A DNA stretch of 64,000 bases, taken from Sulfurimonas sp. SAG-AH-194-L11 (GTDB lineage: Bacteria > Campylobacterota > Campylobacteria > Campylobacterales > Sulfurimonadaceae). The notes under the pieces were generated by a model. It was not told the DNA's origin and made no database searches. It saw nothing but the letters and a program-made list of their open reading frames with translations. The position numbers and the translations under genes are program-made. The stretch spans positions 62,001 to 126,000 of the forward strand of contig NZ_JAEMVB010000002.1 of the NCBI RefSeq assembly GCF_029215995.1. Direction: 5' to 3'. Below are positions 4,227-11,843 of the stretch, in pieces (within the stretch, counting starts at the first letter, position 1; each line of letters begins with the position of its first letter).

Positions 4227-5154
4227 TATAATATTCGGACCTATAAACTCACGCCGTTTTGGCATGAGTTTAGGCATCGACCTCTCCCCGGCACTCAAAC
4301 AGTGTAACTTCGACTGTCTCTACTGCGAACTTGCTCCTGCCCTTACTATGGACAAACAAATCAATACTATAACAGTTGATGAAATTATAAACGAACTTAA
4401 AGCTCACCTCAACTCTAAGATAGATGTCATCACCCTTACCGCGAATGGAGAACCAACTCTTTATCCACAGTTGAGTGAACTTATAGACGCCATCGATACA
4501 GTTAAGGGTAAAACTGAGACACTCATCCTTACAAATAGTGCAACACTTGTAGACCCAAATGTTTATAAAGCACTTTTAAAACTAGACCAAGTAAAACTCT
4601 CCCTTGACGCTATAAGTCCTGATATTTTTAAAAAGATAGACAGACCGCATGAGAGCATAAAAGTAGAAGATATAGTTGAGTGTGTTATAGCCTTTTCTAA
4701 AGAGTATAAAGGCAAACTCTTTATTGAGATTCTTTTTGTACATGAGTTAAATAACACAAAAGAAGAGATACAAAAGCTCAATAATGTTTTACTTGATGTA
4801 AATGCTTTAAGAATTGACCTAGGGACTATAGACAGACCTCCTGCTTATCCTGTTATGGGTATCAGTTATAAAGAGCTTCACACTATAGCCATGGCGTTTG
4901 ACACCGCACTTCCTATACACATAGCTTCGAGAATACATGCAGAACCAAACAATGCTTACTATAGTGATAAAGAGATACTCAACACTTTAGATAAACGCCC
5001 TCTCACTCGTGAAGATACAAAACTACTTTTTGATGAACCAACTCAGATAAGTTTAGAGCGACTTATCAAAGATGGTGAGGTAAGTGTGAAGTCTGTAAGT
5101 AATTTAGAGTTTTTACTACCGAGTGAAAATTTAAAAAGAAAGAGAAACAAATGA
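4210..5154 (+). CDS. Radical SAM protein (COG0731-like)
   Basis: [35 protein letters not shown]: CxxxxxCxxC-like radical SAM cluster. In-frame GTG at 4210 is the likelier start; the track starts at 4165. Confidence 0.8.
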
Positions 5155-5783
5155 CATCTTATGAAAACCTAGAGTTAGAAAACATCTTTATCCCTGCAAA
5201 GACACCATCAAAAAAACTGATGATTATTTTACATGGTCGTGGAGATTCAAGTGAAGGATTTGTAGGTTTTCCTCCATTTTTAGCCCTTGATGACATGAAC
5301 TACATACTTTTTGATGCACCTTTTGAGTACTTCACAGGTCACTCATGGTACCAACTTCCACCAGACCAACTCCCTGGAATTGCTTACTCATCAACGCTAC
5401 TCACAAAAGATTTAGACACTCTTTTTGAGAATGATTTTAATGCAAATGAGAGTTTTTTATTTGGTTTTTCTCAAGGCGCACTCCTTACATTTGAGTTTGG
5501 AGCAAGATACCATAAAGTTTTAGCAGGTTATATCGCCATAAGCGGATATATATATGACACGACTACACTACTAGAAGAGATGAACCCTGATGTAAATACA
5601 GGAAACTGGTTATGCACACACGGAACTAGCGATCCCGTTCTTCCTTACGAAACATCTAAAGAGCAGGTTAAACAACTGCAAGATGGTGGTTTTGAGATAG
5701 AGTTTGTTACTTATGACAAAGACCATAGTATAGACAGAGATGAGTTAAGTATGATTTCTGAGTGGATTAAAAAGAGAAAGTAA
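5151..5783 (+). CDS. Alpha/beta hydrolase (phospholipase/carboxylesterase-like)
   Basis: LMIILHGRGDS oxyanion region; nucleophile elbow GFSQGALL; overlaps the upstream stop by 4 nt. Confidence 0.75.
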   Translation: MTSYENLELENIFIPAKTPSKKLMIILHGRGDSSEGFVGFPPFLALDDMNYILFDAPFEYFTGHSWYQLPPDQLPGIAYSSTLLTKDLDTLFENDFNANESFLFGFSQGALLTFEFGARYHKVLAGYIAISGYIYDTTTLLEEMNPDVNTGNWLCTHGTSDPVLPYETSKEQVKQLQDGGFEIEFVTYDKDHSIDRDELSMISEWIKKRK

Positions 5784-5794
5784 TTTCGTGCTAA

Positions 5795-5821
5795 ACATAT
5801 ACTTAGCTTTTAAGTGTATGT
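5795..5821 (+). terminator. Putative terminator hairpin after the hydrolase gene
   Basis: ACATATACTTA (5795-5805) pairs with TAAGTGTATGT (5811-5821), one G-T pair, 5-nt loop, 11 nt after the stop codon; only a weak T-rich tail. Confidence 0.4.
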
Positions 5822-5836
5822 CTTCATTTTATACTA

Positions 5837-5858
5837 ATATCTCTTTTGCTAGAGATAT
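5837..5858. promoter_or_regulatory. Perfect inverted repeat upstream of the restriction-methylase gene
   Basis: ATATCTCT-tttgct-AGAGATAT, about 77 bp before the GTG start at 5935. Confidence 0.35.
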
Positions 5859-5934
5859 CAAAGTAACATAAATAATAAGATTAAAACCTTCATTTAGATA
5901 GAATAAAATACAAACTTATTTCAGAGGATAAAAA

Positions 5935-8900
5935 GTGCCAATAATGCTATCTCCAAAAGATGTTATTAAAAAATCATATTTAAAACAAAAACTGACAGAT
6001 AAAGAGTTTGAAGGGTTTAAAGAACATTTTGAAAGCTTCCAAAAAGAAACAAATGAAAATGAATCTGAAGAGTATAATAAAAACCTAATCACGGAATTTT
6101 TAAATAATATTGGCTACGCAAATACTTATAAAATAAACACATCCGGTAGAGTAGATTTAGCTATTTATAAAAATAATATTCCTGAAGTCCTCATAGAAGC
6201 TAAAAGTTTAAAAAATAAATCTGAAATGATAAAGCATGATAATCTTAATAAAAAATCACTTCAAGAAGCTGTTTTATATTATATGCGAGAAAAAATTAAA
6301 CATAAAAACTTTAATATTCGGCATATTATTATTACCAATAATATTGAATGGTTTATATTTGATGCAACTGAGATAAATAGGATTGCAACAAATAAAAGAG
6401 TAGAAAAACTTTATAATGATTTTGAAATAGAGAAAACTCTTTTTTCACAAAAAACAGATGAATTTTATAAGCATTTAGGAATTATATTACAAGATGATGA
6501 TCTCTTGAAAAATATAAAATTTGCAAGATTTTACTTAAAAGATAAGCAAACAAATACACAACTGAAATATATTTATAAACTCTTATCACCTACACATCTT
6601 TTAAAACTGTATAGCGAAGATGATTCGAACACTTTAAATAAAAACTTCTATTATGAGTTACTACATATTATGGGTTTAGAAGAGACAAAAGAGGGAAGTA
6701 AAAAAGTTATAGGTAGAAAGTCTAAATTATTAAGAGATGATGGTTCTTTACTAGAAAGTACTATTTTAAAGCTGAAAATTGAACATGATATTAGCAATGA
6801 AGGTAAGCTTTTTGAAACAGCACTAGAGCTGAACATCACATGGTTAAATAGGATTTTATTTTTAAAGTTACTAGAAGCAAGACTTTTAACTATTCATAAT
6901 GGAAAATATCCAAAGTTTTTATCTTATGAAGTTATAGATGATTTTGATAAGCTTAACACCCTCTTTTTTGAAATCCTTGCTCGTAGAATAAATGAAAGAG
7001 AATCTATAAGAATAGAAGAGTTTAAAAACATACCTTATCTTAACTCTTCACTTTTTGAAATAACTCCATTAGAAAGAAAGTATCTCAAGATAAGCGAACT
7101 TAAAAATAATACCATACTTCAAAAGTCTTCAAAAACAATCTTAAAATCCCAAAGCAATGAACTCAGCAGTATTGAGTACTTACTAAAATTTTTAAATGCT
7201 TATGATTTTGGTAGTAATGAAAAAGATGAGTTTAAGGATGAGCATAACACACTTATAAATTCATCTGTTCTTGGTTTAATTTTTGAAAAACTCAATGGTT
7301 ACAAAGATGGAAGTTTTTTCACTCCATCTTTTGTGACGATGTATATGACAAAAGAGAGTATTAGAAAAACAGTTCTTGAAAAGTTCAACAAATATTTTAA
7401 GATTCAAGCTGAAAACTTTCATGAATTGAAAAACTACTGTGAAGCAAACTTTTATAAAGATGAATTTTTAACAAAAGCCAATGACATTGTAAATAGTATT
7501 ACTATTGTCGACCCTGCTGTAGGGAGTGGACATTTTCTAGTATCTGCACTTAATGAACTTTTAAGTATCAAGTCTGAACTCAAAATCTTAAAAGGTCTTA
7601 ATCATATTCAAATAACCAATGAAAATGATGAACTCTACATTGAAACACAAGATGGTTTTTTTGAGTATACACAAACAAAAGAAGCTACTTTTTTAAAAGA
7701 GACTCAAAATATTCAAGAGCTAATATTTAACGAAAAACTCCACATCATAGAAAATCAACTCTTTGGAGTAGACATAAACATAAACTCTGTAAAGATAACA
7801 CAACTTAGACTTTGGATAGAACTTCTTAAAGAGAGTTATTATGATGAAAACAATGAACTTGTTACACTTCCAAATATTGATATCAACATTAAAACTGGAA
7901 ACTCACTTGTTAGTAAATACCCTCTCAAAGATAGTGAAACTAAAAATCCACTTTTAAAAGAGAAGTTAAATGATTACAAGAAGTATGTTAAATGGTATAA
8001 AGAAACAAATGATAAGGCTATTAAAAAAGAAGTAGTTGGCAAAATTGAAGATATTAAAAAGAGCTTCTCTCAAAAGTTAAAAGATGGCTCACCTGAGCTT
8101 ACTGAGTTTAAGAAGCTTATTCAAGGTTTTCAGCCTAAGGACAAAAAAAAGTATATCAAAGGTTATATAGAGCAGTTCGGGTTTAAAGGTTTAAGCGAAG
8201 AGATTATTATAAACTTTTCCAAACAAGAACATTGCATCTTATATGCTCGTTTTGGTAAAGAGTTCAACCCTAATAATACTTCTTTATTTGGTGATGAGAT
8301 AAAACTTACAGCTAAAGAGAAAAAAACTCAAAAAACTCAAGCAACAGCACTGCTTAAAAAAATAAATAAAAAATATGAAATCATAAAAGAGTTTGAGGAT
8401 GCTGAAATCTTTGAAAACTCTTTTGAGTGGCGTTTTGAATTTCCTGAAGTTTTAGATGAGGATGGGGAGTTTGTTGGTTTTGATATTGTTATTGGGAATC
8501 CTCCTTATGGTGCTGGTTTAGACGATAAGACAAAAACATATTATAAAAAACAATATGAAAATGTTCATATGCGAACTATTGATACTTTTAACTATTTTAT
8601 TTCAATGTCATCAAATCTTTTAAAAGATGAAGCATATCTCTCTTTTATCATTCCAAATAATTTTTTGTATCAAAATGAGTATGAAAAAACTAGAGAATAT
8701 TTACTTACACAATTTATAATGCAAGAGGCTATAAACCTTGGAGATAATGTGTTTGATGATGCTAATGTCCCTACATGTATAGTAGAGTGTAAAAATGGCA
8801 CAATAGCAAATAATTATAATTTTAACTATTGTGATATTAGACATTCAAAAGATAAACTAAAAGCATTTGAAAATCTAAGCTTTGAAATTTACAATAAAGA

Positions 8901-9741
8901 TTCTATGTTAAGTATTCCTTCTTATACATTCGGAATAAGCCCTCTAACTATTGAACTTATAAAAAAAGTGAAAGAGAAATCATATCTCATTGATGATATA
9001 GCCTTAGAAGTAGCAAGTGGTATCTCAACAGGTGGAGATAAAGTTTTTAGAGTCTCCCAAGAGTTTGTAAATAAAAATGAACTTGAAACTGATATTTTAG
9101 AAAATGTTTTAGTTGGAAGAGAGATAAATAAGTATGTGATTAATGATACTGAACATCAATTAATTTATACAACTAAAAATGTAGAAATAGAAAAGCATCC
9201 ATCTATATTGAATTATCTTAATAATTTTGAAGAAAAATTAAGTAATAAAAGAGAAACAAAAAAAGGAACTTTACCTTGGTGGTGTTTACATTGGTCAAGA
9301 TACAAAGAACTTTTCACAGAAGAGAAAATACTCTTACGACAAACAGCAGATAGTGTTATAGCAACTTATGATGATAAAGGGTATTTTGCTTTAAATAGTC
9401 TTTTAGTTTTCAAAATTGATTCAAAGTTTGACATAGATTATAAATTTGCCTTGAGTATTTTAAACTCCAAACTAACAACTTTTATCTATAAAAACTATAC
9501 GGGAGAAGATGGTCGTGACTTTGCAGAAGTTAAACCAAAGAATATTAGAAAGCTTTATATCCCAAAAGTTGATAAAAGTATACAAGATGAGTTTGTAAAA
9601 ATTGTAAATAAAATTTTAGAACTAAAAAAACAAAATAAAAATAGTTCCAAGCTAGAGTGTTTGATAGATAAAAAAGTTTATTCCTTATATGACCTTGATG
9701 AAGAAGAGATAAACCTTATAGAGAGTGCTTATAATGGATAA
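5935..9741 (+). CDS. Type IIG-like restriction-modification enzyme: N-terminal PD-(D/E)xK-like region, N6-adenine methylase (Eco57I-like) and C-terminal TaqI-like specificity region; GTG start
   Basis: Candidate nuclease motif GRVDLAIYKNNIPEVLIEAK; SAM motif I DPAVGSGHF (codons from 7510); catalytic NPPY (8497-8508); 1268 aa. Confidence 0.85.
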   Translation: MPIMLSPKDVIKKSYLKQKLTDKEFEGFKEHFESFQKETNENESEEYNKNLITEFLNNIGYANTYKINTSGRVDLAIYKNNIPEVLIEAKSLKNKSEMIKHDNLNKKSLQEAVLYYMREKIKHKNFNIRHIIITNNIEWFIFDATEINRIATNKRVEKLYNDFEIEKTLFSQKTDEFYKHLGIILQDDDLLKNIKFARFYLKDKQTNTQLKYIYKLLSPTHLLKLYSEDDSNTLNKNFYYELLHIMGLEETKEGSKKVIGRKSKLLRDDGSLLESTILKLKIEHDISNEGKLFETALELNITWLNRILFLKLLEARLLTIHNGKYPKFLSYEVIDDFDKLNTLFFEILARRINERESIRIEEFKNIPYLNSSLFEITPLERKYLKISELKNNTILQKSSKTILKSQSNELSSIEYLLKFLNAYDFGSNEKDEFKDEHNTLINSSVLGLIFEKLNGYKDGSFFTPSFVTMYMTKESIRKTVLEKFNKYFKIQAENFHELKNYCEANFYKDEFLTKANDIVNSITIVDPAVGSGHFLVSALNELLSIKSELKILKGLNHIQITNENDELYIETQDGFFEYTQTKEATFLKETQNIQELIFNEKLHIIENQLFGVDININSVKITQLRLWIELLKESYYDENNELVTLPNIDINIKTGNSLVSKYPLKDSETKNPLLKEKLNDYKKYVKWYKETNDKAIKKEVVGKIEDIKKSFSQKLKDGSPELTEFKKLIQGFQPKDKKKYIKGYIEQFGFKGLSEEIIINFSKQEHCILYARFGKEFNPNNTSLFGDEIKLTAKEKKTQKTQATALLKKINKKYEIIKEFEDAEIFENSFEWRFEFPEVLDEDGEFVGFDIVIGNPPYGAGLDDKTKTYYKKQYENVHMRTIDTFNYFISMSSNLLKDEAYLSFIIPNNFLYQNEYEKTREYLLTQFIMQEAINLGDNVFDDANVPTCIVECKNGTIANNYNFNYCDIRHSKDKLKAFENLSFEIYNKDSMLSIPSYTFGISPLTIELIKKVKEKSYLIDDIALEVASGISTGGDKVFRVSQEFVNKNELETDILENVLVGREINKYVINDTEHQLIYTTKNVEIEKHPSILNYLNNFEEKLSNKRETKKGTLPWWCLHWSRYKELFTEEKILLRQTADSVIATYDDKGYFALNSLLVFKIDSKFDIDYKFALSILNSKLTTFIYKNYTGEDGRDFAEVKPKNIRKLYIPKVDKSIQDEFVKIVNKILELKKQNKNSSKLECLIDKKVYSLYDLDEEEINLIESAYNG

Positions 9742-10750
9742 AAATCTAATAATAAATACAACACAATTCCTAATCTACAAATCAGACAATAATGACGTCA
9801 AAGTAGATGTTCTGATTCAAGATGAAAATATATGGCTTACGATAGAGCAGATGGCAGAGCTTTTTGGAAAAGGTCGTTCAACTATAAATGAGCATATTTT
9901 AAATATTTATAAAGATGGAGAGCTAGAAAAAGATGTATCTATGAGAAAAATCGGAAAAACCGATTTTTCTACTAAACCAACAAATTATTATAATCTTGAT
10001 ACTATCATTTCAGTTGGATATAGGGTGAAATCTATCCAAGGTGTACGATTTAGACAGTGGGCTACTGCGCGACTTCAAGAGTATATCATTAAGGGTTTTA
10101 CCATGGATGATGAACGCTTGAAAAATACAGAGCAGGTATTTGGAAAAGATTATTTTAGAGAACAACTAGAGAGAATACGAGATGTTCGTTCTAGTGAGAG
10201 AAGATTTTATCAGCAGATTACGGATATTTATGCTGAGTGTAGTATTGATTATGATAAAAATTCCTTAGCCACCAAGGAGTTCTTTGCTACGGTTCAAAAT
10301 AAACTACATTGGGCTATCACAAAACAAACAGCAGCCGAGATAATATACTCAAGAGCGAATCATATAAATGAAAATATGGGACTAACCACTTGGAAAAATG
10401 CACCAACTGGAAGAGTTAGAAAAACTGATGTGACTGTTGCAAAAAATTATTTACAAGAAAACGAGCTAAATACATTAAATCGAATAGTAACTATGTACCT
10501 CGACTATGCAGAAGACCAAGCTGAGAGAAATATACCAATGACTATGAAAGATTGGAGTCAAAAGTTAAATGCATTTTTACAATTTAATGAACGAGATATT
10601 TTACAAGATGCTGGAAAAGTTACAGCTGTAATTGCAAAAGAATTTGCTATCAGTGAATTTGAAAAGTATAAAGTCATTCAAGACAAATCATATAAAAGTG
10701 ATTTTGACATGTTACTTCAAGAGTTAGATAAAGATGGAAAGATTATATAA
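9734..10750 (+). CDS. RhuM family protein (start reassigned to ATG 9734)
   Basis: IWLTIEQMAELFGKGRSTINEHILNIYKDGEL and FYNLD-like NYYNLDTIISVGYRVKSIQGVRFRQWAT are characteristic of RhuM-family proteins; ATG overlaps the methylase stop by 8 nt. Confidence 0.85.
   Translation: MDKNLIINTTQFLIYKSDNNDVKVDVLIQDENIWLTIEQMAELFGKGRSTINEHILNIYKDGELEKDVSMRKIGKTDFSTKPTNYYNLDTIISVGYRVKSIQGVRFRQWATARLQEYIIKGFTMDDERLKNTEQVFGKDYFREQLERIRDVRSSERRFYQQITDIYAECSIDYDKNSLATKEFFATVQNKLHWAITKQTAAEIIYSRANHINENMGLTTWKNAPTGRVRKTDVTVAKNYLQENELNTLNRIVTMYLDYAEDQAERNIPMTMKDWSQKLNAFLQFNERDILQDAGKVTAVIAKEFAISEFEKYKVIQDKSYKSDFDMLLQELDKDGKII
9944..9970. promoter_or_regulatory. Perfect 11-bp inverted repeat inside rhuM
   Basis: AGAAAAATCGG (9944-9954) / aaaaa / CCGATTTTTCT (9960-9970); resembles a bidirectional intrinsic terminator. 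Confidence 0.5.
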
Positions 10751-10751
10751 A

Positions 10752-11759
10752 CTAAACAATCCAAGCTTCATTCTTAAAAATAACTTCATCATCAAGTTTC
10801 ACTGTAGTTATATCTACAAACACATCTACATGAAACTTCCCCTCACCTCTTTTTATGCCTGGTTTTGCATACATTCCATGTTTACGTCCAAGCGAGAGGT
10901 GGACACCACACATTCGCTCGTATGTTCCCGTGTCACTTACTATTTTCGTTTTACTAAAGGCACGATTAAGACCAAAGCCTAACTCTCTTACAAGTATTTC
11001 ACCCTCACCCTCACGAATTAATTCTAGGACTTCATCAAACGCAGGTGTAGTATTCTCAGTTGCTATCACTTTTCCTTTTTCTATTATAAGGATTGCTGGG
11101 GTTTGGGGTTTGTTAGTTTTATAACTTGTGTTACTAAAGACAGATATTTTTACTCTGCCATGTAGAGCTTCTAAGTCCTTAGACTCAGTAAAGACTTCCC
11201 CAATTGGAAACTGCCCTCCACTGTTTGGCATGATAGAGTAGTCTCCGATGTTTAGTTTAGCACTCTCAAAAGATGAGTCATAGAAAAGAAACTCGCCATC
11301 ACTCTCTATGACGGCCGAACCTGCCTTATCTATCTTACTTTTGAGTGCATATCCTACGCCTCTATAATACTCTTTATCGTATAAAAGTGAATCTATATAA
11401 GTCGGTATCTCATCCTCGCTCATACGACTTAAATGAGGATGCTCTATCACTTTTATCTTGAGCTTAAAGAGTTCTACTCTGATTCTAAAAGCATTTAGGC
11501 GAAAGTTTGTGGACTGTATAAGAGCTACAAAGTCTAATGCTTCTAATGCGTTAAATATTTCTAAAATGTCTTGCGAATCAGTAGCATCAAAGTTTATAAA
11601 GGTAGCATCAGGAAGTGCTAGTTTGTAAGCACTATATAAAAGATTAGAGAGTGTAGAGTTTGTGTCATAGACTACAACTGCTCTTTGTTTATCTGTATGC
11701 TCAAAGACATCTTCAATGATACTAGTAATATTTTTGTGTGCAATCTTTACTTGGTTCAT
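10752..11759 (-). CDS. M29-like aminopeptidase family protein
   Basis: GVHLSLGRKHGMYAKPGIKRGEGKFHVDVFVD C-terminus and GEVFTE; likely start MNQVK at 11759 rather than 11783. Confidence 0.55.
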   Translation of the reverse strand: MNQVKIAHKNITSIIEDVFEHTDKQRAVVVYDTNSTLSNLLYSAYKLALPDATFINFDATDSQDILEIFNALEALDFVALIQSTNFRLNAFRIRVELFKLKIKVIEHPHLSRMSEDEIPTYIDSLLYDKEYYRGVGYALKSKIDKAGSAVIESDGEFLFYDSSFESAKLNIGDYSIMPNSGGQFPIGEVFTESKDLEALHGRVKISVFSNTSYKTNKPQTPAILIIEKGKVIATENTTPAFDEVLELIREGEGEILVRELGFGLNRAFSKTKIVSDTGTYERMCGVHLSLGRKHGMYAKPGIKRGEGKFHVDVFVDITTVKLDDEVIFKNEAWIV

Positions 11760-11843
11760 AAGTGCAATAATACAATACGACACCTCTATTATTAATGAAA
11801 AACTTAAATTTTATAAGTATAATACAAAAATACAAGGAAATTC

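Follow-up and report, generated by a model that had tools for sequence, protein, structure and literature searches.

To our knowledge, no biochemical function has been assigned to RhuM, which mostly goes under the label of a virulence protein. Type IIG restriction enzymes, the second group of proteins considered here, work alone. The occurrence of RhuM in restriction-modification (R-M) loci, together with PrrC or fused to DOC, was described in 2013; it was proposed to be a toxin in a multilevel defence, with protein modification as the predicted activity (PMC3710099). RhuM-like N-termini on Doc homologues had already been reported in 2006 (PMC1626090). RhuM was later listed as PDC-S05, a PADLOC candidate derived by guilt-by-embedding, in a preprint (Payne et al., 2024), as it is cited in PMC12988326 and PMC12255303. 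Most PDC candidates are reported as unvalidated for anti-phage activity (PMC12988326). A comparable layout is that of DarTG, a toxin-type module located inside a type I R-M island and co-expressed with the R-M operon (PMC12255303).

The window analysed here is a stretch of 64,000 nt from the draft genome (79% complete) of Sulfurimonas sp. SAG-AH-194-L11, a member of the Campylobacterota. It contains a rhuM gene coupled to the gene of a Type IIG enzyme. The original prediction had presented this pair as the best candidate for an undescribed system. This was overstated, since RhuM in R-M loci has been on record since 2013 and the window RhuM is PDC-S05. The association of RhuM with R-M genes is an already known class, and the Type IIG pairing is a new form of it. 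The enzyme resembles the Type IIG system PDLC03612 in its full-length match and in uniting nuclease, methylase and target domain within a single chain, and differs only in the translationally coupled rhuM. RhuM strongly matches PDC-S05 and, like PDC-S05 as cited, lies in an R-M locus, but the host system is here a single-gene Type IIG enzyme; rhuM is therefore situated behind the enzyme, not between subunits. The loci described in 2013 also have RhuM beside R-M genes. In contrast to those, the window lacks a PrrC/HEPN gene and a helical C-domain takes the place of Doc. Whereas protein modification was predicted for those loci, the fold matches listed for the window RhuM include none to a Fic structure. 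The proteins of DarTG are unrelated to those of the window, and DarTG is a two-gene toxin-antitoxin system with a dedicated repressor, RptR.

The Type IIG enzyme, the overlapping rhuM gene and their insertion site

The enzyme gene (5935..9741, forward strand) starts with GTG at position 5935 (alternative ATG at 5944), ends with TAA at 9739-9741 and encodes a restriction endonuclease-methyltransferase of 1268 amino acids. The PADLOC Type IIG model PDLC03612 matched residues 8-1264 of this protein (829 bits, E=2e-249), and Pfam identified DUF7149, DUF7814, Eco57I and TaqI_C along the chain. The N-terminal nuclease region (DUF7149; 5950..6618) contains the PD-(D/E)xK residues D74, E88 and K90 (about nt 6154-6204) and is followed by the DUF7814 linker domain (6625..7257). 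The methyltransferase displays the SAM-binding motif DPAVGSGHF (residues 526-534; 7510..7536) and NPPY, the catalytic motif of adenine methyltransferases (residues 855-858; 8497..8508). The TaqI_C target-recognition segment (8482..9534) is unrelated in the homologous enzyme of genome G432. All of these features are on the forward strand. D74...E88-x-K90, DPAVGSGH (D526-G532) and NPPY (N855-Y858) were kept across 18 aligned enzyme homologues. Since one polypeptide comprises the nuclease, the methyltransferase and the target-recognition domain, the protein is best read as a predicted stand-alone Type IIG R-M enzyme with a complete domain set. Its earlier designation as a single-chain Type IIG-like enzyme is borne out by the domains, the PDLC03612 match and the catalytic residues. 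Assignment to PglX of the BREX system was rejected (98 bits versus a curated cut-off of 500). The BREX genes pglZ and brxC were absent among the immediate neighbours of the enzyme gene.

The rhuM gene (9734..10750, forward strand) encodes a protein of 338 amino acids, which was recognised by PF13310 (365 bits, E=2.2e-109; curated cut-off 33.7 bits) and, over its full length, by PDC-S05 (479 bits, E=2e-144). Its ATG at 9734 lies within the last 8 nt of the enzyme ORF (overlap 9734..9741, forward strand). The overlap is not due to chance, since a homologous pair at another locus, in G432, keeps it at exactly the same length. The original prediction was correct in describing these genes as overlapping by 8 nt and coupled. 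A scan for promoters and terminators gave no excess above shuffled sequences.

The neighbours of this module in the window are ordinary core genes. These are an alpha/beta hydrolase-like gene on the left (5151..5783, forward strand) and a convergent gene for 343 amino acids on the right (10752..11783, reverse strand). In G404, a close relative, the two flanking genes abut without any insert, and in G411 the hydrolase gene is directly followed by tex. The GC content is 27% in the enzyme gene and 32% in rhuM, versus 35-37% in the flanks. The lower GC content and the abutting flanks in G404 agree well with the earlier view of the pair as an accessory insert amid core genes. The first ~65 nt of the intergenic stretch left of the module (5784..5877) are shared with G398, which lacks the enzyme. 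The 5' border or leader of the module (5878..5934, forward strand) is common to G432, at the other locus, and largely to G401; it terminates in the Shine-Dalgarno-like AGAGGA. In the same slot of G398 (L221), the common intergenic sequence on the left is followed by a RhuM fragment in decay. This fragment (L221:2700-3005) belongs to a different RhuM, with 38% identity and an internal stop. On inspection of the insert, nothing resembling an integrase, a transposase or an att site was noticed.

Recurrence of the pair and neighbourhoods of RhuM

When 135 genomes from this genus were scanned, G432 was found to carry, at a different locus, a homologous enzyme gene and a rhuM gene, the latter with ambiguous bases. 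The block shared with the window extends from the 5' leader (~5878) to the 3' end of rhuM, and its surroundings differ, with SMEK and DUF2326 genes upstream and an antitoxin gene downstream. The two enzymes are 80-100% identical at the amino acid level up to residue ~840, then only 15-45% identical in the target-recognition segment, and then share a conserved tail. Identity between the RhuM proteins is 35-45% in residues 1-160 and 80-90% in residues 240-338. The simplest history of these sequences would be that the common ancestor already possessed enzyme and rhuM, that the unit moved and that two internal segments were exchanged. Direct adjacency of rhuM to an enzyme of this lineage was found in two genomes, the window genome and G432; the genes of relatives were mechanical ORFs and many assemblies are drafts. 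A third enzyme copy, in G401, is ended by the end of the contig after 28 residues. A phylum-wide comparison of DUF7814 matches with RhuM coordinates gave, among the matches listed, no adjacent pair except that in the window. The suggestion of a one-off pair was corrected by the loci in G432 and G415.

The slot behind the enzyme is modular. It is occupied by YhcG/PDC-S02 in G487 (4-nt overlap), by Fic/PDC-S04 in G429 (23-nt overlap), by AlbA/Schlafen-HATPase proteins at L086 and L089, by a KAP NTPase at L098, and by a hisS-like core gene in G417. In G415, this position holds genes for proteins of 130 and 86 amino acids and for a SoFic-type protein, together with a RhuM that is interrupted. The YhcG, Fic, SoFic and Schlafen/AlbA proteins are further candidate effectors. 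Many enzyme homologues are without RhuM. Since other genes fill the slot, RhuM is one among several exchangeable add-ons and no obligate partner.

RhuM was present in 155 of the 397 Campylobacterota genomes sampled (39%). R-M genes were located at most four genes away in 22 of the 39 top-scoring RhuM loci of the phylum (type I, 14; type III, 8). By this count RhuM conforms to guilt-by-embedding, which is based on a position that recurs within R-M operons or in fusion with them. The remaining 17 loci were not near R-M genes. Of the 36 phylum loci that have an upstream gene on the same strand, 25 showed tight spacing to it (-30 to +10 nt). For the GTDB set, 26 of 83 RhuM copies had R-M genes within four genes, while 57 did not, many of these being on short contigs; the corresponding number was 14 of 36 for copies with four genes visible on both sides. 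The R-M labels were obtained with purpose-built profiles, which makes these counts a lower bound. N6-methyltransferases number mostly 1-6 per genome, so a random gene is estimated to lie this near to one in a few per cent of cases at most. The enrichment of RhuM in R-M loci is strong; no p-value is given because the loci are non-independent. As regards a co-occurrence of RhuM with Eco57I-type methylases, the counts uphold the enrichment near R-M genes, with 22 of 39 loci of type I or III, but RhuM paired with a Type IIG enzyme is seen directly only in the window and in G432.

RhuM also occurs alone, in type I and type III operons, and in non-defence neighbourhoods. A type III operon of the order Mod, accessory gene, RhuM and Res recurs in the phylum (L117, L119, L124, L126, and L131); the accessory gene in L124, L126, and L131 encodes a GHKL-type ATPase. 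Another multi-gene defence locus with an embedded RhuM was found in Paludibacter (L135:331-8308), where RhuM is located between genes for a PLD/SNF2 helicase and an Eco57I-type methylase, at distances of 4 and 9 nt. In E. coli, a RhuM match was obtained in 4,619 of 5,426 complete genomes, with at least 80% query coverage in only 915. At the selC site (tRNA-Sec), L247 contains a pseudogene remnant of RhuM beside tRNA-Sec and L248 an intact lone gene. As the selC copies seen are a remnant or a lone gene, E. coli is unsuitable for obtaining allelic RhuM/R-M pairs.

The abundance of RhuM, in 155 of 397 genomes and also in non-defence neighbourhoods, and the different, decayed copy in the G398 slot without the enzyme are what would be expected of a passenger that landed behind the enzyme by chance. 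This explanation is improbable in view of the module with the same overlap conserved in G432 and of the R-M neighbourhoods that hold more than half of the phylum loci (22/39). Since the pair recurs in G432 and RhuM is enriched in R-M loci, RhuM is more than a chance neighbour of the enzyme, as had been supposed.

RhuM architecture and an exchangeable recognition cassette

The AlphaFold2 model of RhuM (mean pLDDT 83, pTM 0.55) and fold searches distinguished two domains. These are an N-terminal winged-helix or Bro-N-like domain (residues 10-120; 9761..10093, forward strand) and a C-terminal all-helical domain (residues 126-333; 10109..10732, forward strand). The PDB fold matches, all moderate, were DdrC (E=6e-3, the best), a granulovirus Bro-N domain, and Ski/Dachshund domains; the viral matches, also moderate, were Bro-N/antirepressor proteins. 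The likeness to Bro-N, phage antirepressors and DdrC concerns the N-domain fold, and the C-domain differs. For the latter, fold and sequence searches brought up neither a relative, solved or recognised, nor a catalytic motif, and a PDB sequence search with RhuM returned nothing even at E=1. A Fic-like fold is unsupported: the window RhuM lacks the motif HPFx(D/E)GN(K/R) and has no Pfam Fic match.

The RhuM N-domain is fused to a Doc/Fic domain in three proteins (L064:264-1241, which is from the genome of the window, L113:10222-11220, and L121:8638-9633). Also, by inspection, a RhuM N-domain is joined to a PLD-like C-end (HDRFLILD...GASLKDLGKKW) in L078:8242-9105, for which Pfam gave no match. 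The fusions with Doc would be in line with a further explanation, in which RhuM would be a toxin that the R-M system keeps under guard, inactive while the enzyme works and killing the cell when a phage disables the enzyme. A toxin role was put forward previously (PMC3710099), and positions in R-M operons are shared by RhuM with Fic, YhcG and HATPase proteins. However, the window RhuM has no known toxin motif in Pfam, and RhuM is found alone or with unrelated R-M types, which makes a specific guard relation to the Type IIG enzyme unlikely. Overall, the guarded toxin is a rather doubtful explanation.

Comparison within the RhuM family revealed an exchangeable recognition cassette, whose position in the window RhuM is at residues ~41-80 (helix 48-60 plus wing; 9854..9973, forward strand). 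This is the least conserved region among close RhuM pairs: the two bins of 20 residues that make it up have mean identities of 76% and 60%, compared with 81-96% for residues 81-320; only the N-terminal end, with 77%, is comparable. In pairs such as L124/L126, L119/L125, and L114/L128, the DNA is mostly 88-100% identical outside and 68-78% within the cassette, often with more synonymous change in the latter. For RhuM proteins that are otherwise near-identical, DNA identity falls to 67-83% in the cassette (L124/L126, L126/L131, L119/L125, L114/L128, L117/L118, and L068/L076). Divergence of the DNA that is concentrated in the cassette, often with synonymous change, points to segmental recombination and not to point mutation alone. 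The cassette types couple helix with wing (for example, SSISEH with IREIRT and QNISLH with VKEYLT), and the two Doc fusions of the RhuM N-domain in L113 and L121 are likewise distinguished chiefly by this segment. We know of no earlier description of this swap in a literature of which our coverage is non-exhaustive, and we consider it the most interesting new element.

Winged-helix domains are common among plain regulators. RhuM might be a transcription regulator of this kind, with its winged helix on the promoter of its own operon timing restriction against methylation in a C protein-like manner. The fold of the N-domain and the tight coupling of enzyme and rhuM would be suited to this role, and swappable recognition helices would be expected if operators diverge. 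Several features of RhuM disagree with it, however, and render it unlikely. A C protein needs no large conserved helical C-domain, RhuM is also found alone and is absent from many enzyme homologues, and its N-domain also occurs on proteins with Doc or PLD-like ends. Moreover, the last co-translated gene is poorly placed to delay a nuclease, the more so as nuclease and methylase form one chain.

Between the window and G432, the target domain of the enzyme and the N-domain of RhuM both differ while the rest is conserved, as would be expected of a subunit that aids the enzyme in recognising or cutting its own target site. The type I and type III loci contradict this, since there RhuM and the target domains of HsdS or Mod change independently. 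In L067/L074 and L077/L079, the target-domain bins of HsdS are mostly 18-33% identical and the RhuM proteins 96-98% identical; conversely, the Mod target domains of L126/L131 are near-identical and the RhuM cassettes differ. A joint exchange of the RhuM N-domain and the target domain of its partner, as suggested by the window and G432, was rejected on the basis of these pairs. Since the cassette is swapped without regard to the target-recognition domain of the partner, RhuM does not have the specificity of the restriction enzyme. Type IIG enzymes, moreover, require no helper. The subunit role is largely contradicted and hardly credible.

Proposed role of RhuM

The reading that we tentatively prefer is that the pair forms a mobile module, in which a stand-alone Type IIG R-M enzyme is combined with an embedded, independently targeted putative second effector, RhuM. 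The enzyme would methylate host sites and cut unmethylated foreign DNA. RhuM would be a separate effector, made together with the enzyme by translational coupling. Its N-domain may recognise a target of its own, most likely a DNA sequence, via the helix-wing cassette that can be swapped. An activity of the helical C-domain would be released once this target is bound or lost and would stop the phage or the cell as a backup of the enzyme. The original prediction had regarded RhuM as a possible functional partner of the enzyme, namely a regulator, an anti-restriction control or a second effector. The second effector fits best, but RhuM is not dedicated to this enzyme class, other members of which are followed by YhcG, Fic or Schlafen-like proteins, or by nothing, in this slot.

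The compact pair of RhuM and a single-chain R-M enzyme offers a simple system for testing the role of RhuM. The swapped cassette provides a concrete way in: natural alleles distinguished chiefly by it, such as those of L124/L126 (the G244/G363 pair), would be expected to differ in what they bind. A broader proposal, possible but doubtful, is that the N-domain of RhuM serves as a general recognition module of swappable specificity on interchangeable effectors, which would give R-M operons a second, independently targeted defence. If this is true, the interchangeable effectors would be the helical domain of RhuM, the Doc toxin, and the PLD-like domain, and the logic of the N-domain would be comparable to the shuffling of R-M target domains, yet within only ~30-40 residues.
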